64,000 bases of DNA from Rhizobium sp. CF122 (GCF_000282035.1 NZ_AKKA01000072.1:1-64000); one strand, 5' to 3'; counted from the first letter of the stretch, positions 7,507 to 59,513 are shown. Numbers and translations: made by a program. Notes: generated by a model not told the origin, from the letters alone.

Positions 7507-7517
7507 GGTCGATGCGA

Positions 7518-14359: not shown

Positions 14360-14361
14360 CC

Positions 14362-22327: not shown

Positions 22328-22328
22328 C

Positions 22329-31474: not shown

Positions 31475-31491
31475 TTGATTAAAAGAATCAA
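31475..31491. promoter_or_regulatory. Iron-responsive (RirA-type) box before the siderophore operon
   Basis: TTGA-N9-TCAA at 31475-31491 matches the rhizobial iron-responsive operator pattern TGA-N9-TCA, about 45 bp before the first gene of the operon. The same pattern sits before the TonB receptor gene. It predicts RirA repression when iron is sufficient. Confidence 0.65.
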
Positions 31492-31533
31492 GTTTTAGAT
31501 TCAATGAACGCAAGAACGGTAAGCTGGAGAACC

Positions 31534-31962
31534 ATGACGTATCGTTTTCTCTCGCCTCGCGATCTAACTCCCACCGAAGAGACCGATCCAAATCGCATTG
31601 ATGTCGTGCTGGGTCAGATTCTAACTGCCGGACGCTGGACGGTTCCCATTCTGGTGGAGAAGAGCGCGCTTTTTGTGATGGACGGCCATCACCGGCTTGC
31701 TGTGGCCCTACGTCTGGGTCTTGAGGCGATTCCCAGCATGTTGCTCGATTATCGCGATGTCCGCGTGGAGGCTTGGCGCGCCGACGAGACAATCACACCA
31801 GACCTCATTTTCGAGATGGCGAAGAGTGGCAGGAAGTTCCCGGTCAAGACCACCCGCCATACCTACTCAGGAGACTTTCCCGAATGTGACGTATCGCTCG
31901 ACGAACTGCGCCATCGGACGGTGCGGCAGCCCGTAGAGATTTCCGATCGGAGGGCCGGATGA
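31534..31962 (+). CDS. SbnI-like ParB-fold L-serine kinase
   Basis: The 142-aa protein has LSPRDLTPTEETDPNRIDVV, TVPILVEKSALFVMDGHHRL and a short C-terminal tail; DGHHR at residues 50-54 is the signature shared by ParB/Srx-fold serine kinases SbnI and SerK. These phosphorylate free L-serine to O-phospho-L-serine, the substrate of SbnA. It is shorter than SbnI of Staphylococcus (no long C-terminal regulatory region). The ATG at 31534 follows GGAGA at proper distance; an ATG at 31504 would add 10 residues. It overlaps the next start (ATGA) and opens the siderophore operon. Confidence 0.75.
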   Translation: MTYRFLSPRDLTPTEETDPNRIDVVLGQILTAGRWTVPILVEKSALFVMDGHHRLAVALRLGLEAIPSMLLDYRDVRVEAWRADETITPDLIFEMAKSGRKFPVKTTRHTYSGDFPECDVSLDELRHRTVRQPVEISDRRAG

Positions 31963-33323
31963 CGCTCCAGCCGGCAACCAAAATCGACAGCGAGCTGTTC
32001 CCGGTCCTTTCGTCACCGATTGCAACTTTTCTCGCGGGGAACACAAGCAAGATGACTGCTTGGGTCGAGCAATATGGCTCGCCCCTCCATCTGATCTGGC
32101 CGTCAGAACTGATGAGGAATGTTCGAACCTTGAAGGACATTCTCGAAAAACACCAAATCGATCACACAATTTTTTTTGGTGCAAAGGTCAATAAATCCTC
32201 CGCTTTGATGGCAGCAGCACTCCGAAGTGGCGCCGGCGTAGATGTGTCGAGCGTCTATGAACTGCGCGATGCAGTACGCGTCGGTGCTGGCGGCCGAGAC
32301 ATTGTGGCAACCGGGCCGGCGAAAAGCAGAGAGTTCCATGAAGAACTTGTTCGCTTGGGTGCATTTATCTCTGTCGACAGCCCGGAAGAGTTGGACGATC
32401 TCCTCAAGCTAATTCCCTCGGATGCGAACGAACAATCTGTCCTTTTGCGAGTGCGTCCAGAAGGGCATGAAAGAAGTCGTTTTGGAATGCCAGAGGAGGC
32501 AATCAGATCATGCCTTCGCCGGATTGCAGGCGATACACATCTGCGTCTGGACGGCTTCCATTTCCATCTTGGCGGATATCGATGGGAAGACAGGGCAGCG
32601 GCAATACGAGAAACTTTCGGCTTGATCGGTGAGGCGCGGGCTTTCGGCCTGTCACCGCGGATGATCGATATCGGCGGTGGGCTGCCGGTCCAGTATGTCT
32701 CGGAAGTGGCCTGGGCAGCGCATCTGGACGATCAGAAGGCGGAGGACTATCGCACGGGAAAAGTGCCGGATTCGTTTTATCCTTACGGGGGTGTGATATC
32801 GGCCGGCCAGTGGCTTCGAGATTTTCTTTCCGCGCAGGCCAACACAAGCCAGAGCATCGCTGATTACTTGCGAGAGCAAAAGCTGACGCTCGCTATGGAG
32901 CCGGGTCGATCCCTGGCTGACCAGGCTGCCCTGTCCGTCTTCCGCATCACCAGAGTCAAGGATATGGGCCGCGGTCACAGCGTGATATTCGTTGAGGGAA
33001 GCAGCTTCAGCGCTTGCGAAACTTGGTTTGCGTCCGAGTTCCTCGTCGATCCCATGCTGGTGCCGATAGCCGAACGGGTGGAACCGCCGAAATCGGTGCG
33101 CGCTTACATCGCCGGGCACAGCTGCCTGGACGAGGATGTGCTGAGCAATCGCTGGCTGAATTTCTCCACAGCACCTCAAGCCGGCGATCTTCTGGTCTGG
33201 GCCAATACGGCCGGTTACCAGATGGACCTTCTGGAGAACGAGTTTCACCGGCATCCCATGCCCAAACGGTTGTGCGTTACGGAAAGCCCAACCGGAGAAC
33301 TATCCGTCAATCCTGACAACTAG
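31959..33323 (+). CDS. SbnH-like PLP-dependent decarboxylase (fold type III)
   Basis: The 454-aa protein is of the diaminopimelate/ornithine decarboxylase class. The Schiff-base lysine is K76 in FFGAKVNKSS; other blocks are GAGVDVSSVYELRDAV, LDGFHFHLGGYRWEDR, IDIGGGLPVQY, AMEPGRSLADQ and GHSCLDEDVL with Cys about 389 completing the dimer active site. SbnH in staphyloferrin B decarboxylates a 2,3-diaminopropionyl intermediate to an ethylenediamine unit. Here it lies between the serine kinase and SbnA-like genes, so the likely substrate is an N-substituted 2,3-diaminopropionate. A plain diaminopimelate decarboxylase role is less likely in this context. Confidence 0.85.
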   Translation: MTLQPATKIDSELFPVLSSPIATFLAGNTSKMTAWVEQYGSPLHLIWPSELMRNVRTLKDILEKHQIDHTIFFGAKVNKSSALMAAALRSGAGVDVSSVYELRDAVRVGAGGRDIVATGPAKSREFHEELVRLGAFISVDSPEELDDLLKLIPSDANEQSVLLRVRPEGHERSRFGMPEEAIRSCLRRIAGDTHLRLDGFHFHLGGYRWEDRAAAIRETFGLIGEARAFGLSPRMIDIGGGLPVQYVSEVAWAAHLDDQKAEDYRTGKVPDSFYPYGGVISAGQWLRDFLSAQANTSQSIADYLREQKLTLAMEPGRSLADQAALSVFRITRVKDMGRGHSVIFVEGSSFSACETWFASEFLVDPMLVPIAERVEPPKSVRAYIAGHSCLDEDVLSNRWLNFSTAPQAGDLLVWANTAGYQMDLLENEFHRHPMPKRLCVTESPTGELSVNPDN

Positions 33324-33334
33324 GAGAGGAAAGC

Positions 33335-34345
33335 ATGCTTCCGACGAATGTGACGCAGTTGATTGGTCGCACCCCGGTTATGTCGATCGAGGTTCCAAGC
33401 CGGAGTTCCGTTTTGGTGTTGAAGATAGAGAAGAACAATCCGGGCGGCTCGATGAAGGATCGAATGGCTCGCAGCATGGTCGTGGCCGCGCTGAAGGATG
33501 GCCGTCTCGGGGCAGGCGGCACTATTGTCGAATCTTCCTCTGGAAACACCGGGATCGGACTGGCGTTGGCGGCCGTGGAGTTCGGGCTCAACTTCATTGC
33601 GGTCGTGGATCATCATGCTGCGCCCGACAAAATCCGCATGATGCGGGCGCTCGGCGCCGAAATCCGTTATGTCGAGGGTGATTTCAAGGAAGACGAAGTC
33701 GCCGTCGTTGCAAGGCAGAGGCTAGCCGCACAGCTGGGAGCGCAGTTGCCGGGCGCCATGTTCATGAACCAGTCCGACAATCCAGCCAATCCCGAGGGCT
33801 ACGCGGATTACGTCGATGAACTGATGGCGCAACTTCCGAACGGTATTGACGCCTTTGTGGGATGCGTCGGGACCGGTGGCTCGATGACCGGCATCTCTCA
33901 GCGTCTGAAACAAAAGATTCCCACGGTCCGCACCATCGCTGTAGAGCCGGCCGGCTCTATCGTCTTCGGGCAGCCAGGACATCCCTATTTCCAGTCCGGA
34001 ACGGGCACGCCGGCGGGCGACGAGGTCGGTAAGGTGCTGGACTACGGTTGCATCGACGAGGGCGTACAGGTGACCGACGTCCAGGCGTTCGAAACCGCGC
34101 GCTATATTGCTCGGCGCAAGGCTCTTCTCGTCGGCGGCTCGACGGGCGGAGCGATTTTCAAGGCACTGGAGTTCATCGCCACCGGCAAGCTTGGCGGTAC
34201 GGTTGTCACAACCGTGGCCGACGGCGGCGAAAAGTATCTCGGCTCCGTCTTTGACGACGAGTGGATGGCAAAGCGTGGGCTCCTCGATCCGTCCATTGCG
34301 GACCAATTGGACACGTGGCTGCTCGGACGGGTCCGCGCGGCATGA
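33335..34345 (+). CDS. SbnA-like PLP synthase (O-phosphoserine-dependent beta-replacement)
   Basis: The 336-aa protein is a cysteine-synthase-fold enzyme with the PLP lysine K41 in NNPGGSMKDRMA, phosphate loop ESSSGNTGIGLAL and GTGGSMTGISQ. SbnA-type members replace the phosphate of O-phosphoserine with the alpha-amino group of an amino acid (glutamate in staphyloferrin B) to form an N-(2-amino-2-carboxyethyl) amino acid. The neighbouring serine kinase supports O-phosphoserine as donor. Which amine is the acceptor here is unknown; lysine would give the rhizobactin skeleton. GGAGAGG precedes the ATG, 11 bp after the decarboxylase. Confidence 0.85.
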   Translation: MLPTNVTQLIGRTPVMSIEVPSRSSVLVLKIEKNNPGGSMKDRMARSMVVAALKDGRLGAGGTIVESSSGNTGIGLALAAVEFGLNFIAVVDHHAAPDKIRMMRALGAEIRYVEGDFKEDEVAVVARQRLAAQLGAQLPGAMFMNQSDNPANPEGYADYVDELMAQLPNGIDAFVGCVGTGGSMTGISQRLKQKIPTVRTIAVEPAGSIVFGQPGHPYFQSGTGTPAGDEVGKVLDYGCIDEGVQVTDVQAFETARYIARRKALLVGGSTGGAIFKALEFIATGKLGGTVVTTVADGGEKYLGSVFDDEWMAKRGLLDPSIADQLDTWLLGRVRAA

Positions 34346-35484
34346 AAGTGACAATTTGTGGGGCCGGACGCACCGGCCATCTGAATGCCGTCCTGTTCAA
34401 GCAACAGGACGGCATAGAGGTGTCCGTTCTGACATCGTCTGCAGATCTCACGAGACGGTGGAGGGAAGGGGAACAGGTCTGGCAGGCGCATATCTCCGAC
34501 GATAAGGTTCTTAAGGGAAAAATCGATCTTGTCGGAACAAATCCCCGGATAGTGCTTGCGGATACGGACCTGGTGGTCGTGACGCAGCCTGCGCAAGCCC
34601 GTCCGGTATTGCTGCAACAGATTGCCTCTCATCTGCCGAGACACAAGCCGGTCTATGTCGGTGCGATACCCGGCTTTTGCGGCTTCGACTGGCTCGCGGA
34701 AAGCGCCTTCAGCGGGCACGACAATGTCGTGATCTGGGGAATGAAGGATGTTCCGCACACTGCCTACAATCTCGCTCCCGGCAGCGAGGTGCGAATGGGT
34801 GGCGCCAAGGCGGAGCTTTACATCGCTCTTCATCGCCGCGAGACGGCGAAGGCAAGAGCCGGACTTCTCGACATGGTAGGCCGGCTATATGAAGCGCCGG
34901 TGACCATGCTTGAAGACTACCTCGAAATCACGCTGACACCCGGGAATGCCCTGATGCATCCGGCTGTGCTCTACGGTCTGCTTGGACCGGGAGCTCCGTG
35001 GCAGCATCGGCCTTTCGATGAGCCGATTTACTGGTGGAGCGATTGCCCGCAGGTCGGCGCGGAAATGCTGGAAGCGTGCGACGCTGAAAACCAGGCCATC
35101 AAGCGTGCCGCCGAAAGGCGCCTAAATATCGACCTCGCTAGCGTCAAGCCCCTCCGGCAGGAGCTTATTGAAGCTTATGGCGACCAGATCGGTGATGACA
35201 GCACCATGTATTCGCTGCTGAGAACCAACAAGGCCTATGCCGGCATTCAGGCGCCGCTTGTTCCGAATTCTCCAGGACCTGGCCTTGTGATCGACCGCGA
35301 TAGCCGGGCGTTCCATGAGGATATCGCCTTCGGTCAGGCGCTTCTATTGGAAATCGCCAAGCGGCTGGACGTCGCGGTTCCTGCCATTGAAACCACCTAT
35401 CATTGGGCAAGAGCCTATCACGGCAATCTATCCCAGCCACCTCTGAACTATGTTCCCGCGAAATGGGCGGAGGCAATCGCATGA
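34342..35484 (+). CDS. Octopine/nopaline-type opine dehydrogenase
   Basis: The 380-aa protein has an N-terminal Rossmann site (VTICGAGRTGHLNAVLF, residues 3-19) and a C-terminal opine-dehydrogenase domain with GNALMHPAVLYG, where H206 occupies the catalytic His position of the octopine dehydrogenase family. Family enzymes reversibly join an amino acid and a 2-oxo acid by NAD(P)H-dependent reduction of the imine. There is no SbnB (ornithine-cyclodeaminase-like) gene here, so this enzyme either adds pyruvate or another oxo acid to an amine of the siderophore, or replaces SbnB by oxidising the opine-like SbnA product. Start overlaps the SbnA-like stop. Confidence 0.82.
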   Translation: MKVTICGAGRTGHLNAVLFKQQDGIEVSVLTSSADLTRRWREGEQVWQAHISDDKVLKGKIDLVGTNPRIVLADTDLVVVTQPAQARPVLLQQIASHLPRHKPVYVGAIPGFCGFDWLAESAFSGHDNVVIWGMKDVPHTAYNLAPGSEVRMGGAKAELYIALHRRETAKARAGLLDMVGRLYEAPVTMLEDYLEITLTPGNALMHPAVLYGLLGPGAPWQHRPFDEPIYWWSDCPQVGAEMLEACDAENQAIKRAAERRLNIDLASVKPLRQELIEAYGDQIGDDSTMYSLLRTNKAYAGIQAPLVPNSPGPGLVIDRDSRAFHEDIAFGQALLLEIAKRLDVAVPAIETTYHWARAYHGNLSQPPLNYVPAKWAEAIA

Positions 35485-37361
35485 ACAAAAACATTCTCTC
35501 GTCATCGGAAAAGCCGACAAGAACGCCGGAATCGCAGGCCTTGGAGCCGGCGAAGCGGAATGCGCTCACCCGGCTCGTACGGTGCCTTTTCGCGGAGCGA
35601 ATTCTCAACCCCGACGCCTTGCTGTGGCCTGTTGAACATAGTCAAGCATGGCTTCCTCTGTGGTCTTCCCGGAAAATTCTTCATTTCACCAACCTGCGCC
35701 GATTACCTGCAAATACGATGCTGAATCATGGGGACATCGAGGTTCTGGACGAGAAGGGGCAGCGCCGCCGCTTGGACGACCCTGCTGACCTGATTGCCGA
35801 AATCAGTACTGAGTGGTCAGTCGAACCGGCACCGGATGGCGTCGCGCGTTTGCTGTCTGACATCGAAAGCAGCATGGAGAACGATGCTCTGGTCCGTTGC
35901 CATCGGAGAGACTGGACCGCTTCCCTCAAGCAGGATATTGAGACTGCTGGAAAGAGCGGCTTTATTTCCTATCTCAATGCAACACTGCCCAGCCATCAGG
36001 CTGCCATGGTACTGGACCAGTGGGGTTCGCTTGAGGGGCATCCTTTCTATCCGACCTGGAAGGCCAAGCCGGGTCTGTCCGCAGCCGAAGTCAAGGCGTT
36101 GTCGCCAGAGTGCGGTGCTCGAGTCAATCTTCGGATCGCTGCATTGCGCAAGGACTGGGCCTATGCCGAGACGATGCCCCATGTCGACAGCTACAATGGC
36201 TGGTTCTCCACGAGCTACCCGGAACTCTGGTATGCCTGGACCGAAGCCTTGGCTGAGGAGGGGCGGGTTCCGCAAGATTGGTTGCCACTGCCGATCCACT
36301 CATGGCACTTGGAGCACTTCGTCCGCCGCGAGTTTGCCAATGAGATCGCATCCGGTGTCCTTGTCGTAGAGGGGCCGGACATCGTAACGATCCCGTCCAT
36401 GTCGTTCCGGACCATGTTGCCTGATCGCGATGAACCACAGCCGTTCATCAAGCTTCCAGTTGCGATCTGGATGACGAGTGAGCAGCGGACGCTGCAGGCG
36501 AAATCCATTCATATGGGGCCACGCCTAAGCACACTGATCTCGGATATTCTTGCCGCGGACGACGACATTCGCGGCAAACTGGAGTTCTTCCGCGAGGAAC
36601 TGGGTGCGATTCTGCACGACCCCGACACCGGCGACGAACATCCGGGCCGTTTCCTGTCGGTCGTTTATCGGGAGATCGGCGCACTCGCCCGCAACGACGG
36701 GTGGATGCCTGTTACGGTTGCTGCGCTGCTGGCTGCGAGCCCCGTCAACGGCCGTCCGCTAATCTGCGAACTGATTGGCCCAAACGGAGGCGACAAATCG
36801 GCGGCGGCTGAGTTTTTCCGATCCTATGTTGATGTCGTTTTGCAGCCGACCATGGCTATGTATCTTCTCTACGGAATTGCATTCGAGGCGCACCAACAAA
36901 ACAGCACGATCCTGTTTGACCCCTCCGGGCGTCCCAAGAGGTTGGTGATCCGGGACTTCGGCGATGGCCGAAGCTTTGCGCCCTTATTCGAGGCCCGCGG
37001 GTACAGATTGAAGCCCTTCACCCGCGCCGGCATCCTGCCTACCACGTTCAACGATGACATCCGGCTGGTGCGGTCATTTGTGATTGATGCCTGCTTAGTG
37101 TGCCATCTCCATGAGGTTGCGCTTTGCCTCAACGAGCAATACGGGCTGACCGAGGCCTGGTCCATCCTCCGTCAAGGTATCGAAGAGACCTTCGACCGCC
37201 TGCGTCCAAGGATGTTGTCGGACGAATTCTGGCTGGAAGAACGTAACGCGTTTCTAAAGCTGCCCTGGCCGACGCGTTCCGTCCTCCGTATGCATCTAGA
37301 GCGATATCGCGACTACCGCGTGGAACATGAATTGCCGAATCCATTGGCCGAAACTCCATGA
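35481..37361 (+). CDS. IucA/IucC-family NRPS-independent siderophore synthetase
   Basis: The 626-aa enzyme adenylates a carboxylate (commonly citrate) and forms an amide with an amine. Landmarks are [17 protein letters not shown] (residues about 185-201), [10 protein letters not shown] near 271-280, [24 protein letters not shown], and [13 protein letters not shown] with [12 protein letters not shown] in the FhuF-like C-terminal part. In the first motif the usual GHPxHP is GHPFYP, so the second His is Tyr190. It is the only such synthetase in the locus, whereas staphyloferrin B needs three and aerobactin or schizokinen two, implying one amide bond in the product. ATGA overlap upstream and downstream. 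Confidence 0.93.
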
Positions 37362-38584
37362 CCGGCACAATTACCATCATAAAAAGCTTCGGGCCGGTTT
37401 TTGGCATTCTTTTCGCCCTGCAATTCATCTCCATGGGAGCCATGGAGATGAGCGGCCCTTTCTGGCCGTTGCGTATCGAGGAACTATCGTCCTCCACCGG
37501 TGTATTCGCGCTGGCGGGTATTGGGGTCTATGTCTGCCCGATGCTCGGCGTCTCACTGACCAGCACGCTTTGGGGGAGAGTGGGAGACCGCTTCGGCAAC
37601 CGTCTGATGATGGTACGGGCGCTTACGGGGCTTGCCGTCACGCAGCTTCTCGTTGCCTTCGCCCAGGATGTCTGGTCGATCCTGTTCCTTCGATTTCTGC
37701 AAGGGGCTTGCGCTGGGTACATCGCGCCTGCTCAAGCCTATGGTATCCAGATCACCGGCGGCCGCCATCGTGGGGTGCTGCTCACCTGGCTTCAGGTGGC
37801 AACCAATGTTGGCTCTCTCGGTGGTGCCTTCCTGGGGGGGCTCATCCTCGACGCGTCGTCGTTCATGGCGATCAACCTTGCAGCCGGCCTCATCTGCGCC
37901 GCCTGCACGTGTGTCGCCTGGATCGTATTGCCGCAACCTTCAGGAGGAGAAGGCGCTTCGGCCAAATCGAGCCAGGTACCAGTTCACTCCACCCCGCAAG
38001 AGGCGCCGGTTTGGGGTCTCCTGATCTTGATGGGAATGATGCTCGCCAGCCGAATGGTTTTGCAAGTGCCGTTCGCGCTTTATATGCAGGACGTTTTTCA
38101 CGCGCCACATTGGATGACGGGCTTCAGCTATGGCCTGTTAGCGTTTGGCTTCATCGTAGCGGCACCTGCCTGGGCTCGCTTTTTCAATGACCGTTCTGCC
38201 ACGTTCATTCTGGGCTGGATCATCATCATTGCCGGAGGCGGCGCCGTTCTCGCCCTCGTCGCAGGGATGACGCGATCCCTCACGTTTTTTGCCGCTCTCT
38301 ATTTCCTCTGGGGCGGATTGTTGGGGGGAACGACACCGATCCTCGTGTCACTCGTGTCTTCCGCAACCGTGAGCAATCGCCAAGGCTCAGTGCTGGGGCT
38401 CTCACAGTCATGTCAGCAGATCGCGTCCATCGTGGGCATCTCCATCGGTGCCGGCATGACCCAACTGTTCGGCCTCCAGACCATTTATCCCCTTGTCTCG
38501 CTGCTTTATGCAGCGTCCCTTGTCGCTGCGCTCGGGCTGTGGTTGTCCGTGCGGTCGCATATACCGATTGGAGACGCATTGTGA
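37358..38584 (+). CDS. MFS transporter, probable siderophore exporter
   Basis: The 408-aa protein has 12 predicted transmembrane helices and the MFS motif [17 protein letters not shown] between helices 2 and 3, with [19 protein letters not shown] in helix 4. It is embedded by overlaps in the siderophore operon, in the place of SbnD-type exporters in carboxylate siderophore clusters, so export of the product across the inner membrane is the likely job. A drug-efflux role is the alternative. Confidence 0.88.
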
Positions 38585-39738
38585 ATCGACGACGCTTTGG
38601 TTTCATGTCCCTGCTACTTCTGGCTTTGTACATTCCGGTGGCAACCCGCGCCGGAGATAAACCTGTTCAGCAAACATCGATCACGGTTACGGACATTGCC
38701 GGACGAGAGGTGAAGGTGAATGTGCCTGTCCGCAGTATGCTTCTGGGAGAGGGCCGCCAGCTCTATCTGGTCGCCTCACTGGACCGAGAAAATCCGCTGG
38801 AGCGTATCGTCGCCTGGCGCAACGACCTGATCGAGGCCGACCCCGCAACTTATAAGCAATATCTCGAGAAGTTTCCCGAGCTCGCCAAACTACCGACCTT
38901 TAAGGGACATGAAGGCAGCCTGATCGACATCGAATCCGCCATTGTTAAAAAGCCCGATGTCGTTCTCCTCAACCTCGAAGCCAAGCAGGCCACTGAGGAT
39001 GCTCAGTACATCGAGAAGCTCGCGATGCTCGATATTCCGGTGCTCTATATCGACTTTCGGCATTATCCGCTGAAGAACACCGACCCGACGATCAGACTGC
39101 TCGGCAAGATCATGGGACGGCACGAGCGGGCGGAAGAGGTCATCTCATTCCGCAAGGAAGCGATGGATCGCGTGGAAAATGTTCTCGCCAAAGCCAAGCC
39201 GACGCGGCCCAGCGTATTCATCGAACGCATTGGCGGATATTCGGAGGATTGCTGCCTCACGTTTGGCGCCGAGAATTTCGGAAAGTATGTGGAGTTGGCG
39301 GGCGGATACAATATCGGCAGTGGCATCCTTCCATCGACCTTCGGCCAGCTCAATCCGGAACAGGTGGTTGTTTCCAATCCGGACCATGTCATCGTCACGA
39401 GCGCCGATTGGCAGGCTTACGTGCCCGGCGGACGATGGATTCCCGTCGGCCCGGGCGCCGACCTGAACGCTGCCCGCAAGAAGCTGGAATGGTACACCAC
39501 ACGCGATGCCTATATCGGAACGACTGCGCAGGAGAAGCGCAATTTCCACGGCATATGGCACCAGTTCTACAATAGCCCATATGAGTTCATTGCGGTTCAA
39601 TGGATTGCGAAATGGCTCCACCCGGACATCTTTGCGGATCTCGATCCCGATCAGACATTCGCCGAATATCATCGGCGCTTTCTGCCGATCGGTTACAAGC
39701 CGGGTTACGCCGTTAGTCTCGACCCTGCACTCCGATAA
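38581..39738 (+). CDS. Iron-siderophore ABC transporter substrate-binding protein
   Basis: The 385-aa protein has an N-terminal signal segment ([20 protein letters not shown]) and the class III (FepB/BtuF-like) fold: [56 protein letters not shown], and [32 protein letters not shown]. The GTG at 38581 overlaps the exporter stop (GTGA). It is on the long side for the family. Its cognate permease and ATPase genes are destroyed directly downstream, so it is an orphan unless another system supplies them. Confidence 0.88.
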
Positions 39739-39789
39739 CGCAGACACGGACAAAATGGATGGGGAGATTCGGTCGGTTGCGATCAGGCG

Positions 39790-40140
39790 GTGAGTTTCAG
39801 GAACTATCTGGTCTTGGGCGTTCTGCTCGTTTCGCTTATTCTCGCTTGCCTGCTGGACGTGGCAACCGGTTCCACCTGCTACGGGCCGGATGGATGATGT
39901 CTTGCCCACTGCGCTTGCGCCTGGGATGGGCAAGCGCAGATGCGTATCATCGTCTGGTCCATTCGGATCCGTCTATCCTGACGGCGATGGTCGTTGGACA
40001 TGCACGACCTCAATCTGGCGCTGAAATTCGCCGACAAGATCGCCACCTCGCTGACGGCACCCTTCGTGCATTCGGGCCGGGTCGGCGATGTGCTCACCCC
40101 GGATAAACTCGGCGTGGCATTCCGGTGTAAAGTCGTCTGA
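39790..40140 (+). pseudogene. Collapsed FecCD-type permease / FecE-type ATPase remnant
   Basis: 39790-39897 encodes 35 residues ending LLDVATGSTCYGPDG, the N-terminal helix of a FecCD iron permease (family: LDxATGP). The permease match continues in other frames (WDGQAQMRIIVWSIRIRLS, then LTAMVVG) to about 39998. From 40000 a third piece encodes MHDLNLALKFADKIATSLT and HSGRVGDVLTPDKLG, the C-terminal end of a FecE/FhuC ATPase after the switch His. The middle of both genes is missing and frames are broken, so import components were lost by an internal deletion plus point decay. Confidence 0.75.
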
Positions 40141-40148
40141 AACGTGCT

Positions 40149-40201
40149 CCCAAGGCCGGCTTCGTTTGATCGTCGACGATGCGATTGAATCCGGCCTTGG
40201 G
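40149..40201. terminator. Long-stem hairpin between convergent siderophore genes
   Basis: Arms CCCAAGGCCGG (40149-40159) and CCGGCCTTGGG (40191-40201) are perfect inverted repeats over 11 bp. The 31-nt loop contains the palindrome ATCGTCGACGAT. TTTCGT follows on the plus strand. It lies between the broken importer genes and the stop of the TonB receptor gene and is probably a bidirectional terminator. Confidence 0.6.
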
Positions 40202-40220
40202 TTTCGTAAAGGCTCTCTGG

Positions 40221-42356
40221 TTAGAAGTCGGTGGCCATGGAGAGTTTGACCGTCAGCGGGGCGCCTTGGGCGATCGTGCTGAAGCTGGCGACGCCGGACC
40301 AATAATTCTTGTTGAAGACATTCTCGACCGACGCCCGCAACGTGACTGGCCTGTTCTCAATTTCCGTCTTGTAGCGAGCACCGAGATCTACGCGGGTCCA
40401 CGACGGGATTTTCAGCGAGTTAGTCGTGTTGATATACTGCTCGCTTGTATGGATCACGTTGCCGGTCAGGGTCAGGCCCTCCAGGAACGGGGTGTCCCAT
40501 TCCGCACCAATATTGGCCTGGACCGTCGGAACGCCGACCGGCCTGTTTCCGCGGGTTGCCGCAGATGAGGTCTTCGTGAGCTCGCCGTCGATAAGCGTCA
40601 GTCCGCCAAGCAGCCTCACATCGTCGGTCACTTCGCCAAAGACGTTGAACTCGAGGCCGCGATTGCGCTGCTCGCCGCCGGCTGTAAACAGCAAGCCGCC
40701 ACCGGTCGATTCCAGCTGCCCGAATGGCTTCTCGATCTGGAAGGCGCTGACTGTCATCGCGATCTGTCCCAGATCAATCTTCGTTCCGATTTCATATTGG
40801 GTGGCCTTGTAGGGCGCCAGCGTTTCTCCAGCATTGATCGCAGTTGTGGGGGCCGACTCCCCGATGCTGAGACCCTCGGCATAGTTCGCGTAGAAGGAAA
40901 CCGCATCCCACGGCCGGACGACGACTCCCACCAGAGGCGTAACAGCGTTCTCGTCGGATGAGGTCGTAACCATTCCGGTGGCGTTGAAGTTCTTCGAGTC
41001 GATCTGCTGGAAACGCCCTCCAACTGTGAACTGCAGGCGATCATCCAGCATGGACAATGTATCGGACAGAGCCACACCTGACAGAATGCTCTCTGAAACC
41101 TTCGGTATTGATCTGGGATCGGCAACGAACTGCCGGGGACGAGAAACAGGGTCATAGATGTTGCTGAGCTGCGCCCGTCCGGAGATGATCGCTCGGTCAA
41201 GGTCTTGCTTCAGGTAGCTCGCCTGCAAGGTCACTGTATGAGAGATAGGATCAGTGTCGAACTTGGCTCTGACGCCTGTCTCCGCTGTGAGCCTGTCGAC
41301 GTCGAAAATCGCGTTCTGCGGCGTAATGCTGACGTCGCCGGCGGAGTTGAGGATCGTCGGGAGGCCGAACAGGCGATGAACATGCGAGTTGCCGCCGCCC
41401 AGGGCACCAAACCAGGTCACATCGTCTGTGAGATCGTATTCGACACGGCCCAGGACCGAACGATCCGTAACTTTCGACCATTCCCATGGCTCTTGCACGT
41501 TCAGGGACCCGTCCGGCGCATCCGGTACGACGAGACCAGTCGTCTGAAGGAAGGGGCGCTGCGGCGCGTCAAAGGTCTCACGTTGCCCCAAGACGTCCAG
41601 TGTCGCTCGGAGATTCTCGCCCTGATAATCAAGTGCCAGCGAGCCGACAAAGAAATCGCGCGTCTGGTCGTCGATCGGTGTGTCGCCACCGTGAAGGCTG
41701 CCGTTGAACCGGATGCCGAATTGTCGCTCGTCGCCGAATCGGCGAGACACGTCGAGGTGCGCACCTCCCTGCATGTCGGAAGCGTAGAACGTCGTCAGCC
41801 GGGTCAGATCAGTGTCTAGAGCGCGTTTGGGAACGATATTGATGGTGCCGCCAACTCCACTGTTGGGAGAGATACCATAGAGGAAAGCCGTCGGCCCCTT
41901 GAGCACTTCGATCCGTTCAGCATATTCGGTGAAGACGCGATATGTCGGCGCGATCCCGTACATTCCGTCAAAGGCGATTTCACCGAAATTGCCTTCGGCG
42001 ATCGGGAATCCCCTGATGTAGAAGGAATCCAAGATCCCACCGGACGAGTGCGTATTCCGGACTGAGGGATCGCTCTCAACGACCTCGCCTACGGTTTGTG
42101 CTCCCTGATCCTCTATTTTCTGCGACGTAAATGCTGTTACGCTGAAAGGAATATCCATGAAGTCTCGATCGCCCAATGCGCCGATACGGGCACCTTTCGC
42201 AACCTGCCCGCCGGGATACTCTTCCGGAAGCGCTCCAATCGTCGAGGTCGCGTCCCCCTTGATAGTGATCGGTTTTAGTTCAGTAACGCTTTGCGCGCGT
42301 ACGGTCCCGTTCCCAGCAAGAGCCAGAGCGGCTGCCACGCCCAATCGAAATTTCAT
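40221..42356 (-). CDS. TonB-dependent siderophore receptor
   Basis: The 711-aa outer-membrane protein has a signal peptide (FRLGVAAALALAGNGTVRA), a plug domain (DIPFSVTAFTSQKIEDQGAQ, SFYIRGFPI, ERIEVLKGPTAFLYG, GGTINIVPKR) and a 22-strand barrel ending in Phe (KLSMATDF). The plug layout is of the FhuA/FoxA-type siderophore receptors, though the ligand cannot be read from this. No separate TonB box is obvious; VTELKPITIKG at about 24-34 is the likely one. It is convergent with the synthesis operon and has its own iron box. Confidence 0.95.
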   Translation of the reverse strand: MKFRLGVAAALALAGNGTVRAQSVTELKPITIKGDATSTIGALPEEYPGGQVAKGARIGALGDRDFMDIPFSVTAFTSQKIEDQGAQTVGEVVESDPSVRNTHSSGGILDSFYIRGFPIAEGNFGEIAFDGMYGIAPTYRVFTEYAERIEVLKGPTAFLYGISPNSGVGGTINIVPKRALDTDLTRLTTFYASDMQGGAHLDVSRRFGDERQFGIRFNGSLHGGDTPIDDQTRDFFVGSLALDYQGENLRATLDVLGQRETFDAPQRPFLQTTGLVVPDAPDGSLNVQEPWEWSKVTDRSVLGRVEYDLTDDVTWFGALGGGNSHVHRLFGLPTILNSAGDVSITPQNAIFDVDRLTAETGVRAKFDTDPISHTVTLQASYLKQDLDRAIISGRAQLSNIYDPVSRPRQFVADPRSIPKVSESILSGVALSDTLSMLDDRLQFTVGGRFQQIDSKNFNATGMVTTSSDENAVTPLVGVVVRPWDAVSFYANYAEGLSIGESAPTTAINAGETLAPYKATQYEIGTKIDLGQIAMTVSAFQIEKPFGQLESTGGGLLFTAGGEQRNRGLEFNVFGEVTDDVRLLGGLTLIDGELTKTSSAATRGNRPVGVPTVQANIGAEWDTPFLEGLTLTGNVIHTSEQYINTTNSLKIPSWTRVDLGARYKTEIENRPVTLRASVENVFNKNYWSGVASFSTIAQGAPLTVKLSMATDF

Positions 42357-42437
42357 TATAAATAACCCCTATTGATCGCTTGCGCGCACCGCGGGTTTTT
42401 GCAACCCGCGCCGGCCGTCCCGAAAGCACCTAATTAA

Positions 42438-42456
42438 CTTGATGATTATAGTCAAG
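42438..42456. promoter_or_regulatory. Iron-responsive (RirA-type) box before the TonB receptor gene
   Basis: CTTGA-N9-TCAAG at 42438-42456 is an exact 5-bp-arm palindrome with the TGA-N9-TCA core, 82 bp before the receptor ATG. Together with the box at 31475 it predicts coordinated iron control of synthesis and uptake. Confidence 0.7.
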
Positions 42457-42710: not shown

Positions 42711-43340
42711 GTCAGCAGATCGGGCGACAGCAGCCTTCCCTCGCGTTCCTGGTTCGCGACGACTTCGCCAAGCTTCATGGTGTTCCAGAAGATGATGATC
42801 GCGGCGAGCAGGTTCATGCCGGCGATCCGATAGTGCTGCCCTTCGGCGGAATGGTCGCGGGTTTCGCCCCGGCGATGGAAGCTGATGGCTCGCTTCAGCG
42901 CATGATGCGGACGAAGAGTTCGAGCCAGGCTCAAACTGACGCAGCGAGACGAAGCGGGTCACCCGATTGTCAGCCGTCTCCTCGAGCAATGCCAGTAACT
43001 GTTCCCGGATCGGCATAGACAACCGACCGGCAATCCGCGTCTCGATTTGCCGCTCGGCATCGACCAGAGCCGTGGCGCAAAGCCGCTCGATCGTGGATGT
43101 CGCGGGAAGAACGGTGCGGGTGCGTCGGCACTCGGTCACGAAGCGACGGGCGACATCCTCGTTCGACACCGCCAGTTCGGCTTCCCGGAACAGCTAACCC
43201 CTCAGTTCGCGTACTCCGCGTCTGGAGAAGGTGCGGAACCCATGGAGTGCCCGCAACCAGGCAAGATGCTCGTGCCGCGTCTCTTCACGGGAGGCATAGT
43301 CAACGAGATCATCGGCGCCGGCGGTCGGTTTCCAAGGGCT
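42711..43340 (-). pseudogene. Second Tn3-family TnpA, internally deleted and truncated
   Basis: Reading down the minus strand, the N-terminal domain is recognisable (ASREETRHEHLAWLRALHGFR, then ERLCATALVDAERQIETRIAGRL and MPIREQLLALLEETADN-like helices), then there is a jump and frameshift to the C-terminal core (GQHYRIAGMNLLAAIIIFWN, GRLLSPDLLTH). Homology stops after LLTH where the neighbouring element's end begins, so the last 30-40 residues and this element's own end are absent. It differs from the remnant at 30932. Confidence 0.7.
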
Positions 43341-43475
43341 GCAGCGGGTGGTTTTTGCCCTCCGTCTCGCCGATCGGAACGAGCAGGCAGCGCCATATCC
43401 GGGCCTTGCCGACGATGCGGCGAAGGTCGCATCTCGGATCCCTTTCCGGGCCTTAAGCCGCTGAGCGCAGCCGGG

Positions 43476-45028
43476 TCACTCCACCTTCTCGATGTCACCT
43501 GGGACCCAGCTCTTGTCGAGGGCGGGTTCGGTCGGGCCGTAGAGCCGGAGGATGGCGAAGTATCCTCTGCCCGGCACGGTGGCGCGCCAGTTGCCTTGTT
43601 TGCCTTCGGGTGCCTGGGTCCGAGGAAGATATCCGTGCTGCCGTCGGCGTTCTGCGCCGGCTTGTCCTTTGAACCAAGCGAAGGGAACGGCTGGCCATTG
43701 GCGAGACCGGAAGCGTTCTCCGCCTCATAGAGCGTCACCGACCAGAACAGGCGGGCCGGGATGTTGGCCGGCAGATTCAGGCGATAGCTGCTGCCGCCCA
43801 CCAGGGGCGTGCCCTCGCTGTCGGTGAAAGCGATCACATACATGGCGGCTGCGCCCGGACTTTTGGACACCATCCCGGGGCTGATCGAGTAATAGTTGGT
43901 GAACATCCAGATCCGGGCATCGAGGTCCAGATATGGATATGTTCCAGCGACATTTTCCCAGGCCAGGTTCAAAGTTCCTGTTGGATTGGCGGGCGTCCCG
44001 TCTGGGAATGGATTTACCCAGCGGCGGTCCGAATACATGAGATAGGAGTTGCCACTGACCTTTTCGTCGAAGCCGATGACGCGACTCATCTTGTAACCGG
44101 TCTTTGCGGCCCGATCGAGGATCTCGCGGATGTGCGCATCCGGTGTGAACGGCTGACCCTTGACGATGCCGATCGCCGCCAGCATGCCGAGCCAATCCGG
44201 ACCGGCGAGATTGTCGCCCTCCGTGTCCACGAGCCGCTTGAGTTGCTCAAAGACGCTGCCATCGCTCATCGGCAGCATGTTGGCCGGGATGTCAGAGGCG
44301 TCGGGGAACTTCATCGCCTTGGCGCCGCTTTCGCCGTTCAGTGGATAGATTCTCGTCTTTTCAAGGTGCCCGGCGGCCGGCGTCAGATTCTTCGGGTCTT
44401 CGTAGAACCCGCGCAGGAAGATGAAGACGTTGTTGGTCCCGGAACGGTAAACGAAGTAGCCTTGCGGCACCTCGCCTTTGTAACCGGGTGGGAGGATCAA
44501 GAACTTGCCGCCCTTACCGGCATCCGGCCCGAACAGCCCGACGTCACCAAAGAACTTGCCACCATCGACCGGGATGGGGCGCTGCCAATAATCTAACAGG
44601 ATGCCTTGCAGCATGGGTGGGGCATCCATCACCACCGGCCCATCTTTGCCCAAGTCAACGTAGCTCATCGCGTAGAGGAGGTCGGAGTTGGGAGTCGTCA
44701 CCAGCGTCTTGGCGTCGAGTCTCTTCTTCCAGATCGGCAGGACGTTGTAGCCGGCGCCGAAGTGCTTTTCCGACCCGACCTGCATCCCGAGGGTGTTGAT
44801 CAACGGCAGCGCCCAGAGATAGGTCTGCGTCGCCCGTTGGAAGAGCAGTTCGTCGCGCAAGGTCTGCGCTGTCTCTTTTGTAGGCCGGCCTTCCGCGAAC
44901 GGGAGGTTGGCCAACTTATCGAAGGAGGTCTCCTGAGCGAAAGCCTGCGGTGCAAGGCCGTTCGTTGCCAAACCGCCAACCAGCGCGGCGGCGATAAGGC
45001 TGAGGGTGCGAGTGGTTGTCATGTTCAT
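43476..45028 (-). pseudogene. DUF1254/DUF1214 protein with a 1-nt frameshift near the C-terminus
   Basis: The protein starts MNMTTTRTLSLIAAALVGG with a signal peptide (cleavage near APQAFAQ), then DUF1254 (ETAQTLRDELLFQRATQTYLWALP, TTPNSDLLYAMSYVDL) and DUF1214 (FWSVTLYEAENASGL, QNADGSTDIFLGP). After GP the frame goes off family. One base earlier frame resumes as APEGKQGNWRATVPGRGYF and ends GDIEKVE at 43476-43478, the normal family ending. The sequence at 43613-43618 therefore lacks one base relative to the expected GPKAPEGK codons. Either a recent loss or a sequencing error; otherwise a periplasmic protein of unknown function. AGAAGGA precedes the start. Confidence 0.75.
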
Positions 45029-45054
45029 GTTCCTTCTGCGCTTGATCGGCTTAT

Positions 45055-46521
45055 TCACTGCACCATCGCGATGGTCGGCGGCGTCCAAGTGCCGTCGAGG
45101 ATAGGCTTGTCGGGCCAATAGGCGCGGATGTAGAGCGAGAACGTACCTTCGGGCGCGGGCAGCCAGTTGCTTTCCTTGTCCGCGCCCGGCGACTTGGCGC
45201 TGGCGTAAAGCGTCAGCGAGCCGTCCGCGTTGTATTTGATGGTCTTGTTCTTCGTGCCCAGCGAATAGCGCCTCAGTGGATTTGGGTTGAAGAAGTGGAC
45301 ATCGTTATACAAGGTCAACGACCAGAACCCCTTGACCGGTGGCGTCTGACCCTTGGCAAATGTGATCGTGTAATTGTTCTGTCCGTTGAGTTGTGCACCC
45401 TGGTTGTCGTTGTCCGTGTAGATGTACTTGGTTTCCTCAGGCCGGTTGTCGTACATGTTCGACTTGGAGGTGCCCGTGCGATTGACGTAGTCGGTCCCCC
45501 ACTCAGCACCGTTCACCGGCGAATTCCAGCCATTGCCAGCGGGACGGCCGTTGTTGCGCCACAGAAGGAATGGGTCGATCATCTCGCTTGCAGCCGCAAC
45601 GGCGGTGTCTTTGAGCGTCTGCTTGATTTGCGGGTCCTTGGCGGCCGCCTCCAGCACGCTACCGATCCAATTGTAGAGGGCTTCCTCGCCCGGCATCGGC
45701 GGCACTTGTTTCATCACCTCAGGCAACTCGTCGAAGAAGGTTTCCGGGTTTACCCACTTGGTCTCACCCTTGCCGGTGGATTTCGGTGCCGGGAAATGCG
45801 GAAGCTTGCTCCAGTCCCTGATCTTCATCTTCCCGTCGAACTCCGACAACGGGTAGTAGACGACCTGGCTGAGCAACGGCTGGACGGCTTTTTGATCCTC
45901 GGCGCTGTCATCGATGAAGATGCGCGGAATGACAAAGGCAAGCGACGTGGAGGAGCGCACCACCGCCGTGATGCCGGCTGGCGTTTCGCCCTTCCAGTCT
46001 GGGCCGACCATCAGGTAGAAGCCGGGCTTGGTGCCGTATTGCCTGCCGATCTCGGAAAACTCGTCGGTGCGCGCGTCATAGTGCGCATAGACCCAGAAAC
46101 GATCGCCAAAATCCGGGACCTGGAAGACGATGGGCTCTTTGTCCAGTGTCATCCAGCCGGCACCATACGCGACATCCTGGTTCGGGCAGGCGATGATCGT
46201 CTGGTCCGGGCTGATATACCCGGTCAGCATTGCGTTCCCGTTGAATGCGATTGGAACCACTCCGCCGATCAAGCCTGGTTGGGGAGCCTTGGAAAAGGCG
46301 ATGGAGCGGTTGACCGAATTGACCAGTGGCCAGCCCCACAAGTAGGCCATGCGCCCGACCGATTGCACGTAGGCCGTTGTCATGGCCGTGCCGCTGGGCG
46401 GGCCGGGAACTTGAGCGGCGGTTGTGGGGATCTGGACCTGCTGCGCGTGGGCCAAGTTTGGCGCCATCGCAAAGCTCAATGCGAGCGCGGTAGCAACGAC
46501 GGATGATTTCATGCGGCTCAT
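45055..46521 (-). CDS. DUF1254/DUF1214 family periplasmic protein
   Basis: The 488-aa protein has a signal peptide (SSVVATALALSFAMAPNLAHA), DUF1254 (AYVQSVGRMAYLWGWPLVNS, CPNQDVAYGAGWMTLDKEP) and DUF1214 (VKGFWSLTLYNDVHFF, YNADGSLTLYASAKSPG, ESNWLPAPEGTFSLYIRAYWP). The biochemical role of the family is unknown. It is intact and lies upstream of the frameshifted relative; the two probably formed an operon, with only 26 bp between them. GGGAG precedes the ATG at 46521, and the surrounding GGAGAGACCATCA is present twice. Confidence 0.88.
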   Translation of the reverse strand: MSRMKSSVVATALALSFAMAPNLAHAQQVQIPTTAAQVPGPPSGTAMTTAYVQSVGRMAYLWGWPLVNSVNRSIAFSKAPQPGLIGGVVPIAFNGNAMLTGYISPDQTIIACPNQDVAYGAGWMTLDKEPIVFQVPDFGDRFWVYAHYDARTDEFSEIGRQYGTKPGFYLMVGPDWKGETPAGITAVVRSSTSLAFVIPRIFIDDSAEDQKAVQPLLSQVVYYPLSEFDGKMKIRDWSKLPHFPAPKSTGKGETKWVNPETFFDELPEVMKQVPPMPGEEALYNWIGSVLEAAAKDPQIKQTLKDTAVAAASEMIDPFLLWRNNGRPAGNGWNSPVNGAEWGTDYVNRTGTSKSNMYDNRPEETKYIYTDNDNQGAQLNGQNNYTITFAKGQTPPVKGFWSLTLYNDVHFFNPNPLRRYSLGTKNKTIKYNADGSLTLYASAKSPGADKESNWLPAPEGTFSLYIRAYWPDKPILDGTWTPPTIAMVQ

Positions 46522-48188: not shown

Positions 48189-48205
48189 TTGGCACATAAT
48201 ATGCT
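48189..48205 (+). promoter_or_regulatory. Possible sigma-54-type promoter element
   Basis: TTGGCAC-ATAAT-ATGCT in the divergent region has GG-N10-GC spacing (GG 48191-48192, GC 48203-48204) and resembles the -24/-12 consensus. No RpoN activator gene is near, and a LacI regulator normally works with a sigma-70 promoter, so this may be chance. Confidence 0.25.
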
Positions 48206-48299
48206 CCCGCACGCCAAACCAATTTCATTCTGGCATTTCGCGCGCTACATATCAACACGCATCCAGTCCTTGGGGACGATGGAAACGGGAGGAGAAGTT

Positions 48300-49274
48300 A
48301 TGAAGGGAATGAAGCGTCTCTGCGCAGCGATGCTTGCGACCACTGTCGTTGCGTTCACTGTGTCTTCGGCGATGGCCGCCAATATTGCCGTCGTTGGCGG
48401 CAAGAACGATGATGCGTTCTGGAATCTGATTAAGAAGGGGATTGATGATGCCCGGCCAGTCGTCGAGGCAAACGGAGGCAAGGTCAACTACCTGCGCCTT
48501 CAGACCTATGACAACTTCGCTCCGGACGTCGTCCAGCTCATTCAGACGGCAATGAGCCAAAAGGTCGATGGCCTGGTCATCCCGAACTGGGTTCCTGAAG
48601 GCGAAGACCCTGCGATCAAGGAAGCGGTCGCGGCCGGTATCAAAGTCATCCTGATGAACGCGGGTGGGATTGACAAAGCCAAGGAACTCGGCGCCATCAA
48701 CTATGTCGGATCGGATGAATATCTCGCAGGCGTCGCAGGTGGCGAATATTTCTTCAAGAATGGCAAGAAGAATGTCATCTGTGTGAACACGGTACCGGGA
48801 GCTGCCAATCTGGAGGCGCGCTGCAAGGGTGTCATCGAGGGCATCGCCAAGAGCGGAGGTGCCGGGAAGCAGCTTCCACTGCCCGCAACCAGTTTCGGTG
48901 ACGCAACCGCCGTCGCTGAAGCGATCAAGGCGACGCTGCTTCAAGACGCCAAGATCGATGGCGTCATTACGATCTCGGCTGGTGACGCGGACTCGGCTGC
49001 CATCGGTATTCAGCAAGCTGGTAAGACCGAAGCCGCTCTTCTTGGAACATTTGACCTCAACCAGTCAGGCCTTGATCGCATCAAGGGCGGAACGCAAGGT
49101 TTCGCGATCGACCAGCAGCCCTATCTGCAGTCGCTGCTGGCTGTAACTCTCTTGGCTTCGGCAATTGATTTCGGAACGAATCTTCCGACGTCACCGCTGC
49201 TGACCGGTCCGAGCATCGTTGATAAGTCCAATATCGACGCAACCCTGGCGGGCGTCTCGAAGGGCGCACGCTGA
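48300..49274 (+). CDS. Sugar/inositol ABC transporter substrate-binding protein
   Basis: The 324-aa periplasmic protein has a signal peptide (RLCAAMLATTVVAFTVSSAMA) and the ribose/inositol-type binding fold (IAVVGGKNDDAFWNLIKKG, QKVDGLVIPNWVPEG, GAINYVGSDEYLAGVAGGEYF, DLNQSGLDRIKGGTQGFAIDQQPYLQS). Related rhizobial proteins include IbpA and MocB. With the permease and ATPase behind it, it should import myo-inositol or a related cyclitol. The ATG at 48300 follows GGAGAAG. Confidence 0.9.
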   Translation: MKGMKRLCAAMLATTVVAFTVSSAMAANIAVVGGKNDDAFWNLIKKGIDDARPVVEANGGKVNYLRLQTYDNFAPDVVQLIQTAMSQKVDGLVIPNWVPEGEDPAIKEAVAAGIKVILMNAGGIDKAKELGAINYVGSDEYLAGVAGGEYFFKNGKKNVICVNTVPGAANLEARCKGVIEGIAKSGGAGKQLPLPATSFGDATAVAEAIKATLLQDAKIDGVITISAGDADSAAIGIQQAGKTEAALLGTFDLNQSGLDRIKGGTQGFAIDQQPYLQSLLAVTLLASAIDFGTNLPTSPLLTGPSIVDKSNIDATLAGVSKGAR

Positions 49275-49387
49275 CCGCAAAGCAATGTCTCACGTCGATC
49301 CCCGACATATGCTCGGCGGATCGGCGGGTGCATTCGCTGATCTCTGTCAGCTGTTTCAGAATGCGGCCAATACTGGGAGTGAATTAC

Positions 49388-50392
49388 GTGAAAAACCTGT
49401 CCTTGGGTGATCTTATTCGACGCCCCGAATCCGGCGCCTTTCTCGGCCTCGCCTTCGTGCTTGTCTTCTTCGTCGTGTTCGGAAGTGTCGAATTCTTGAA
49501 GCCAGCCGGCGCGGCAAGCTGGCTGAACGTCGCCGCCAACCTGGGGATCGTCGCGATCCCTGTCGGGTTGCTCATGATTTCTGGTGAGCTCGACATCTCC
49601 ATCGGAGCCATGATCCCTGCGGGCGCTTTAACGGTGGCGATCATCTCCGGTCACTACGGCATGCCGATCTGGTTGGGCATTTTGGGCGCATTGGGTCTCG
49701 GTTTGGTGATCGGGCTGATCAACGGCTTTCTCGTCATCCGCACTGCTGTACCATCGCTCATCGTAACCCTTGGCACTCTGTTTGCCGTGCAGGGTCTTAT
49801 CCTCGGATGCTCGGTGTTGCTGACGGGAACGACCAGCGTCGCGCTCAGCCCGGCTGCTTCCGGCGTGATAGCCAAGTCTCTCTTCGGATCTTTCGTAGGC
49901 GGCAGCTTTCAAGTGACGATTTTCTGGTGGTTGGCGCTGACGGCAGCTTACATTTTCTACGTTCACTTCTCGCCTTTCGGAAACTGGATCTTTGCCCTAG
50001 GGGGCGACGGTGCCAGCGCACGGAATGCGGGTATTCCGACAGACAAACTCACTGTCATGCTTTTCGTGCTTTCTTCGGTGAGCGCAGCGTTTGTCGGCAT
50101 GTGCCAGGCCATTTTGTTCAATGTTGCGCAGGTTTCTGCAGGCATGACCTTTATCTTCAACTCGATCATTGCGGTGGTGGTCGGCGGGGTTTTGCTGACC
50201 GGCGGCTTCGGTTCGATCGTCGGGATTTTCCTCGGCACGGTGACCTTCGCGATCGTCAACCAGGGCATCTACTTCACGACTTTCGACCGGAATTGGTCGA
50301 GCCTGATCATCGGCGTCATGCTGCTCCTGGCCGTGTTGATGAACAACACCTTCCGCATCATGGCACTTACCTATTCGCCGAAGAAGAAATGA
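49388..50392 (+). CDS. Sugar/inositol ABC transporter permease (RbsC-like)
   Basis: The 334-aa membrane protein has eight to ten helices and RbsC-family blocks (VAANLGIVAIPVGLLMISGELDIS, GLVIGLINGFLVIRTAVPSLIVTLGT, GGVLLTGGFGSIVGIFLG, TFDRNWSSLIIGVMLL). The GTG at 49388 is favoured by GGGAGTG upstream; an in-frame ATG at 49328 would add a hydrophilic stretch. It is followed by the ATPase gene after 8 bp. Confidence 0.9.
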   Translation: MKNLSLGDLIRRPESGAFLGLAFVLVFFVVFGSVEFLKPAGAASWLNVAANLGIVAIPVGLLMISGELDISIGAMIPAGALTVAIISGHYGMPIWLGILGALGLGLVIGLINGFLVIRTAVPSLIVTLGTLFAVQGLILGCSVLLTGTTSVALSPAASGVIAKSLFGSFVGGSFQVTIFWWLALTAAYIFYVHFSPFGNWIFALGGDGASARNAGIPTDKLTVMLFVLSSVSAAFVGMCQAILFNVAQVSAGMTFIFNSIIAVVVGGVLLTGGFGSIVGIFLGTVTFAIVNQGIYFTTFDRNWSSLIIGVMLLLAVLMNNTFRIMALTYSPKKK

Positions 50393-50400
50393 GGCAGGTC

Positions 50401-51222: not shown

Positions 51223-51242
51223 ACGAATAGGGAGAAAGACCC

Positions 51243-52145: not shown

Positions 52146-52318
52146 CCCGAGCTAAAAAGTCAGCCCCCTCGTTCCTTCGATAGCGGGGCCCCAGCCAAGC
52201 AGCAACGCGTGAAAGCGTGGACAATCTGACGAGAATCTTGCAGCGGCGCCCGATCCCAACCGCCGGACGAGCGAAGCTGTGTCTACGGAAACCGGCACAG
52301 GGCCGGAGGAGATATGAA

Positions 52319-53491: not shown

Positions 53492-53568
53492 GCCCGCCTT
53501 CGGGGCGCGTTCCTCCACACCTCCCAAGCGCGCGCCCCATTTTTCTCCAACACTGGAAAGACAATCTG

Positions 53569-55729: not shown

Positions 55730-55745
55730 GGAGGGGAGATCAGAA

Positions 55746-59503: not shown

Positions 59504-59513
59504 GGGCCCCGTT

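Follow-up and report, generated by a model that had tools for sequence, protein, structure and literature searches.

Which siderophore would be specified by the locus considered here? It lies in a 64,000-nt stretch of DNA from Rhizobium sp. CF122 (NZ_AKKA01000072.1:1-64000, called the window below, with coordinates counted from its first base) and includes a biosynthetic operon at 31504-39738, encoding in order a kinase, a decarboxylase, a synthase, an opine dehydrogenase, an IucA/IucC synthetase, a major facilitator superfamily (MFS) exporter, and a binding protein, followed by a divergent TonB receptor gene. An earlier reading of the same DNA, referred to here as the original prediction, had placed an eight-gene siderophore locus at this position, and had deduced a rhizobactin-type product from the enzymes alone. 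The locus itself is confirmed: all eight genes are open frames, they are collinear, and they belong to the predicted families. The six genes from kinase to exporter overlap or nearly abut, the largest gap being 11 bases, and the start of the binding protein gene overlaps the end of the exporter gene. Very probably, the locus serves the iron-repressed biosynthesis, export, and uptake of rhizobactin or a very close congener. The pathway belongs to the siderophore class independent of non-ribosomal peptide synthetases (NRPS-independent siderophores, NIS), with staphyloferrin-type precursor enzymes plus an opine step.

Rhizobactin is an iron scavenger described in 1985, and has thus been a named structure for some forty years with no genes found for it; no assignment of its biosynthesis genes was found in the open-licence literature. 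It is often confused with rhizobactin 1021 (rhbABCDEF), which shares the name and the use of NIS synthetases but is an unrelated hydroxamate siderophore with two of them. A 2025 ISME J paper, for example, applies “rhizobactin” to rhizobactin 1021 (PMC12815270). Rhizobactin proper was discovered in Sinorhizobium meliloti DM4 (PMC7676072); this founding rhizobial compound carries malate and lysine.

Among sequenced bacteria, only Pseudomonas sp. FEN has been shown chemically to make rhizobactin, and it carries the same cluster. FEN releases rhizobactin (m/z 378.1866) and rhizobactin B (m/z 392.2020), in which citramalate replaces malate, as established by isotope-coded high-resolution mass spectrometry (MS), MS/MS, and nuclear magnetic resonance (PMC7676072). 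Its draft genome (CAJFDC01; PMC7849696) contains the cluster as L074 among the related loci gathered here, and this cluster holds both the only PF04183 (IucA/IucC) gene and the only PF02317 (opine dehydrogenase) gene of the genome. The CF122 genome likewise has a single gene of each kind, both in the window locus. All eight gene types are found in FEN, with identities to the window proteins of 41% (kinase), 51% (decarboxylase), 70% (synthase), 51% (opine dehydrogenase), 51% (synthetase), and 50% (exporter). The FEN cluster differs in having in addition a CitE-like gene, a class-V aminotransferase-like gene, and FecI/FecR regulators. The authors of the chemical study ascribed biosynthesis to homologs of rhbAB, genes of rhizobactin 1021 (PMC7676072), an attribution that would be corrected if the present assignment is true.

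Five steps would lead to the product. The kinase would supply O-phosphoserine, and from it the SbnA-like synthase would transfer the three-carbon unit to the lysine alpha-amine; the decarboxylase would then take off the serine-derived carboxyl, giving N2-(2-aminoethyl)lysine. The octopine-type dehydrogenase would reductively couple pyruvate to the free amine, forming the carboxyethyl (alanine-like) end, and the synthetase would activate the malate carboxyl distal to the hydroxyl, making an amide on the lysine epsilon-amine. The order of these steps is inferred, as is the stereochemistry of the CF122 product. Summed as lysine plus O-phosphoserine, less phosphate and CO2, plus pyruvate and 2H, less water, plus malate or citramalate, less water, the route gives C15H27N3O8 and C16H29N3O8. 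The predicted [M+H]+ values, 378.1871 and 392.2027, correspond to the measured 378.1866 and 392.2020. The formulas are thus reproduced exactly, in support of the earlier proposal that five enzymes account for rhizobactin, and the proven producer, with its sole NIS and PF02317 genes in the cluster, supports the deduction of a rhizobactin-type product. Such a route combines enzymes of the staphyloferrin B, opine, and NIS types.

Several points weigh against this assignment. In FEN, cluster and product are linked by exclusion and not by knockout, as the draft genome has one NIS gene; FEN is a relative of another species, 41–70% identical at the protein level, and its CitE-like gene has no counterpart in the window locus. 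No product or mutant is known for CF122, and no gene of the family was found that is tied to a structure by mutation. The closest curated model for the synthetase is the citrate-using FslA, so that citrate may be used instead of malate. The ortholog of the window synthase in Sinorhizobium fredii, Y4xP, has been reported as a cysteine synthase gene (PMC3973906). Finally, the permease/ATPase pair of the locus is gone, and uptake must use another importer.

The enzymes themselves were considered one at a time. The original “SbnI-like serine kinase” holds as far as relatedness to SerK and SbnI is concerned, but the protein is compact (about 142 residues) and not a full-length SbnI. Its start is more likely ATG 31534 than the listed open reading frame (ORF) start at 31504, with GGAG just upstream and homologs beginning there. 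As a single sequence it has no Pfam match, but it does match the archaeal serine kinase SerK at 1e-8, and a profile of its family matches SerK at 8e-18 and SbnI at 3e-10. Against the curated full-length SerK model it scores just 36 bits (cut-off 380), and the middle part of SerK is missing from it. Glu15 aligns with Glu30 of SerK, the catalytic residue that is mutated in structures 5x0e and 5x0j; across 24 homologs the motifs DGHHR (with DGNHR as a variant) and KTTRH are kept. In a structure model with a predicted local distance difference test score (pLDDT) of 91.8, SerK and SbnI are the top fold matches (template modeling score, TM, 0.8 by query length). The protein is predicted from these comparisons to make O-phosphoserine.

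The decarboxylase, in which Lys76, EPGR 314-317, and Cys389 are invariant among homologs, is predicted to act on the serine-derived unit, removing its carboxyl. For the synthase, SbnA (TIGR03945) is indeed the best NCBIfam model, at 236.8 bits, but the curated cut-off of 349.95 is not reached, and the earlier “SbnA-like” applies in this looser sense; its predicted role is to couple O-phosphoserine to the lysine alpha-amine. A true SbnA was sought for mapping the O-phosphoserine-binding residues Arg132/Tyr152/Ser185, and none above the curated cut-off was found in four genomes. Going by the offset in numbering alone, Arg132 might correspond to the invariant Arg127, and Tyr152 to Ser147. The opine dehydrogenase matches PF02317 at 99.1 bits (Pfam cut-off 30) and octopine dehydrogenase (OcDH), of the octopine-dehydrogenase/CENDH type, at 7e-30 as a single sequence and 8e-40 by profile. 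Its His206, Arg322, and Asp327, invariant in 25 homologs, align with OcDH His212, Arg324, and Asp329, and OcDH is also the best fold match of its structure model (input alignment without plasmid-collection sequences). Octopine dehydrogenase and CENDH both use pyruvate, and the window enzyme is predicted to couple it reductively to a free amine.

Some of these components are shared with other metallophore systems. The opine metallophores staphylopine, pseudopaline, and yersinopine also involve an opine dehydrogenase step with an oxo acid, but their dehydrogenases are only 12–15% identical in the fold match, and their partner is a nicotianamine-synthase-like enzyme. A staphylopine-like product was rejected, given the wrong dehydrogenase subfamily and the absence of a nicotianamine-synthase-like gene among the eight. 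The staphyloferrin B (sbn) system has a related kinase (SbnI), decarboxylase (SbnH), and synthase (SbnA), but it has three synthetases where the window has one, and SbnB where the window has an opine dehydrogenase. Staphyloferrin B was rejected as well: the genome has one PF04183 gene, and SbnB and a citrate synthase are absent from the locus. The original prediction had also excluded a staphyloferrin B-like product, on the number of synthetases.

For the synthetase, the closest NCBIfam model is FslA (NF041038), at 277.7 bits against a cut-off of 1000. FslA and FslC build rhizoferrin by citrylation, decarboxylation, and a second citrylation. Plain rhizoferrin was rejected, with model scores this far under the cut-off. 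A rival product would be ethylenediamine-rhizoferrin: the synthase and an oxidatively acting opine dehydrogenase would make 2,3-diaminopropionate (as SbnA/SbnB do), the synthetase would citrylate it, the decarboxylase would act, and a second citrate would be added. All five enzymes would be used, and both the synthetase and the MFS protein are nearest to rhizoferrin proteins (FslA and FslB, respectively) in NCBIfam. The decarboxylase, however, scores 122 bits to LysA and 23.5 to FslC, the FslA score is again low, and FEN makes a lysine/alanine/citramalate compound with no second NIS gene, all of which leaves this scheme very improbable. The synthetase is instead predicted to put malate on the epsilon-amine of lysine.

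The acyl group of the window product is nevertheless uncertain, because the synthetase is 51% identical to that of FEN and its nearest curated model is a citrate-using enzyme. The product could have the rhizobactin skeleton with another 2-hydroxy acid (citrate or citramalate) or diamino acid (ornithine), which would be a refinement of the rhizobactin assignment and not exclusive of it. Two forms with different hydroxy acids are made by FEN, and rhizobial and Pseudomonas synthetases, about 50% identical, fall in separate parts of the synthetase tree. A CitE/HpcH-type gene is found in-cluster in 27 of 80 loci, all within the Pseudomonas/Pectobacterium/Bosea part of this tree, where 27 of 29 rows have it (the exceptions are Methylobacterium and Cupriavidus); it is present in every fetched Pseudomonas, Pectobacterium, and Bosea locus, as well as in Serratia and Proteus, and in none of the rhizobial loci among the 80, the window included. 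Its best NCBIfam model is RipC (160.8 bits, cut-off 375), ahead of CitE (108 bits). RipC is a C-C lyase of itaconate degradation, a citramalyl-CoA lyase, and a role of the gene in providing the citramalate that sets rhizobactin B apart would fit. Since it is absent from rhizobial loci, and S. meliloti rhizobactin carries malate along with lysine, malate is suggested as the acyl unit in CF122, with lysine as the presumed diamino acid; a congener with another building block is a tentative, rather unlikely option. A class-V aminotransferase/cysteine-desulfurase-like gene, possibly an epimerase or tailoring enzyme, was also seen in 21 of the 80 loci, in Pseudomonas and some Burkholderiales, and in addition in Serratia (L085:12495-13679).

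The 80 loci were collected by searching for relatives with the opine dehydrogenase. Decarboxylase, synthase, opine dehydrogenase, and synthetase occur together in all 80, the exporter in 79, and the kinase in 75, even where it is now on the opposite strand or in among other genes; the grouping of these genes is therefore not by chance. The cluster is widespread, with hosts among rhizobia, Burkholderiales, Pseudomonas, and Pectobacterium; it is also present in records of Serratia and Proteus. Within the window's own family it is patchy, with just four of 121 genomes having it. Two S. meliloti strains have complete clusters on accessory plasmids (pSINME01 of AK83 and accessoryA of USDA1021), and in S. 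fredii NGR234 the cluster is on two replicons, pNGR234a (87333-94378, L097) and NC_012586. Serratia marcescens E28 has a full cluster on a 67 kb plasmid-classed record, pE28_003 (L085), with an IS5-family transposase between its genes. The Proteus mirabilis locus (L086, NZ_OL790812.1) is on a 4.09 Mb record listed as a plasmid, a doubtful label, as the record is, judging by its size, probably a chromosome.

Two of these relatives correspond to genes already in the literature. According to a review (PMC11026637), the proteobactin operon of P. mirabilis, pbtABCDEFGHI (Himpsl 2010), has the same gene content but includes PbtI, is iron-repressed, and has a mutant-supported chelation phenotype; PbtA is classed there as NIS type B together with Y4xN, and no structure is given. 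The P. mirabilis locus L086 has all the gene types, kinase included, with identities to the window of 46% (synthetase), 46% (dehydrogenase), 65% (synthase), 48% (decarboxylase), and 39% (kinase); it differs in the citrate-lyase-beta-like PbtI, which is not among the window locus genes. The claim that no five-gene route of this kind had been characterized thus needs amending, as the same gene set is known genetically in proteobactin, with no structure reported in that review. In S. fredii NGR234 and USDA257, y4yB-y4yA-y4xP-y4xO-y4xN-y4xM are the same six genes in the same order as in the window, but on pNGR234a they lie within the type III secretion locus, flanked by nopX and nopL, and have no binding protein or receptor of their own. 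They have been called enigmatic and flavonoid-dependent (PMC3973906).

The cluster genes were thus known piecemeal, and their assignment to rhizobactin is what appears to be new. No open-licence paper was found with both proteobactin and rhizobactin; the assignment may already have been made in a preprint or a subscription journal. It is reasonably likely that one pathway family covers rhizobactin, proteobactin, and S. fredii y4yB-y4xM, with a synthetase representing an NIS specificity for malate or citramalate, not citrate, and with citramalate supplied, in the Pseudomonas/Enterobacterales branch alone, by a citramalyl-CoA-lyase-like enzyme encoded in the cluster. If true, this predicts the identity of P. 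mirabilis proteobactin and gives a function to the S. fredii secretion-locus genes.

TGA-N9-TCA boxes had been noted at both promoters of the locus. This type of box fits the iron-responsive operator (IRO)/RirA box of rhizobia. The longer form TTGA-N9-TCAA has just two occurrences in the 64 kb, where 0.8 would be expected, and these coincide exactly with the two promoters, at 31475 and 42439. The shorter form is common (32 sites, about 15 expected), and the motif by itself is therefore little proof. The boxes are, however, conserved in most alphaproteobacterial relatives: TGA-N9-TCA is found within 300 bases of the start for 23 of 32 operons and 22 of 28 receptors, as compared to 11% of random stretches. 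The Bradyrhizobium loci have none at the expected place. Iron control is probably exerted by RirA at these two predicted boxes. Within the locus, simple searches for sigma-70 promoters and terminators gave results equal or close to those from shuffled sequence.

The MFS protein would export the siderophore, and the TonB receptor (TIGR01783, 370 bits, over cut-off) and binding protein would return the ferric complex. The start of the latter was refined to GTG 38581, overlapping the exporter stop, and the protein is 71–83% identical in most rhizobial loci. What the original prediction missed is a remnant between this gene and the receptor: a permease N-terminus (approximately 39766-39970) and an ATPase C-terminus (approximately 39985-40130), with the frame interrupted. 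The two pieces align to regions 1.4 kb apart in an intact relative (L002), indicating a deletion of about 1.4 kb relative to Rhizobium vallis; the FecCD permease/ATPase pair is intact in R. vallis, R. mesosinicum, R. tropici, and others. The scar raises the question of whether the locus is decayed or silent, with intact biosynthetic genes but no self-sufficient siderophore system. Biosynthetic, export, binding protein, and receptor frames are nevertheless open with conserved motifs, many Sinorhizobium loci likewise have no such pair beside the cluster, and the genome has six further FecCD domains, two of them in one long FhuB-like frame at 116-118 kb of the same contig. Decay is accordingly improbable, and a locus active in CF122, with import by another system since the local permease and ATPase are deleted, would be the better account. 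The features of the locus are collected in Table 1.

Table 1. Features of the siderophore locus in the window, with CitE/HpcH-type genes of three related loci.
Feature	Position	Strand	Basis or remark
TTGA-N9-TCAA palindrome (IRO/RirA-type box), biosynthetic operon promoter	31475..31491	+	One of two in window
Compact SerK/SbnI-like free serine kinase (predicted)	31534..31962	+	SerK profile match, conserved motifs, fold model
Pyridoxal phosphate (PLP) fold-III decarboxylase, Y4yA family, SbnH-like	31959..33323	+	PF02784/PF01168; invariant residues
SbnA/CysK/CBS-like PLP synthase, Y4xP family	33335..34345	+	PF00291; best NCBIfam model TIGR03945
Octopine-dehydrogenase-type opine dehydrogenase	34342..35484	+	PF02317; catalytic residues; fold
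Single IucA/IucC (NIS) synthetase, Y4xN/PbtA clade	35481..37361	+	PF04183+PF06276
MFS exporter, FslB-like	37358..38584	+	MFS family match; FslB nearest in NCBIfam
Periplasmic ferric-siderophore binding protein	38581..39738	+	PF01497 (Peripla_BP_2); GTG start
Scar of deleted FecCD permease/ATPase pair	39766..40130	+	Alignment to intact relative locus L002
TonB-dependent siderophore receptor	40221..42356	-	TIGR01783
TTGA-N9-TCAA palindrome, receptor promoter	42439..42455	-	Second of two in window
CitE/HpcH-type gene, Pseudomonas sp. FEN	L074:6008-6913		Nearest RipC
CitE/HpcH-type gene, Serratia	L085:440-1264		Nearest RipC
CitE/HpcH-type gene, P. mirabilis	L086:2522-3355		Nearest RipC

Some other features of the window can be mentioned. 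Beside the receptor, at 43202-46521, are two tandem DUF1254/DUF1214 proteins, and the receptor-proximal frame continues beyond the conserved region as a long, unusual tail. The region is flanked by nadABC-like genes (NadA, FAD-binding, and QRPTase; 19821-23180) and by a myo-inositol-type catabolic cluster (48189-60323). Further away, at 7503-8777 and 10524-15474, a YcaO-domain protein is found near ABC-2 transporters and an HlyD-type adaptor, with a TPR/BTAD protein ahead. These genes may form a locus of their own, for a small peptide or for transport.

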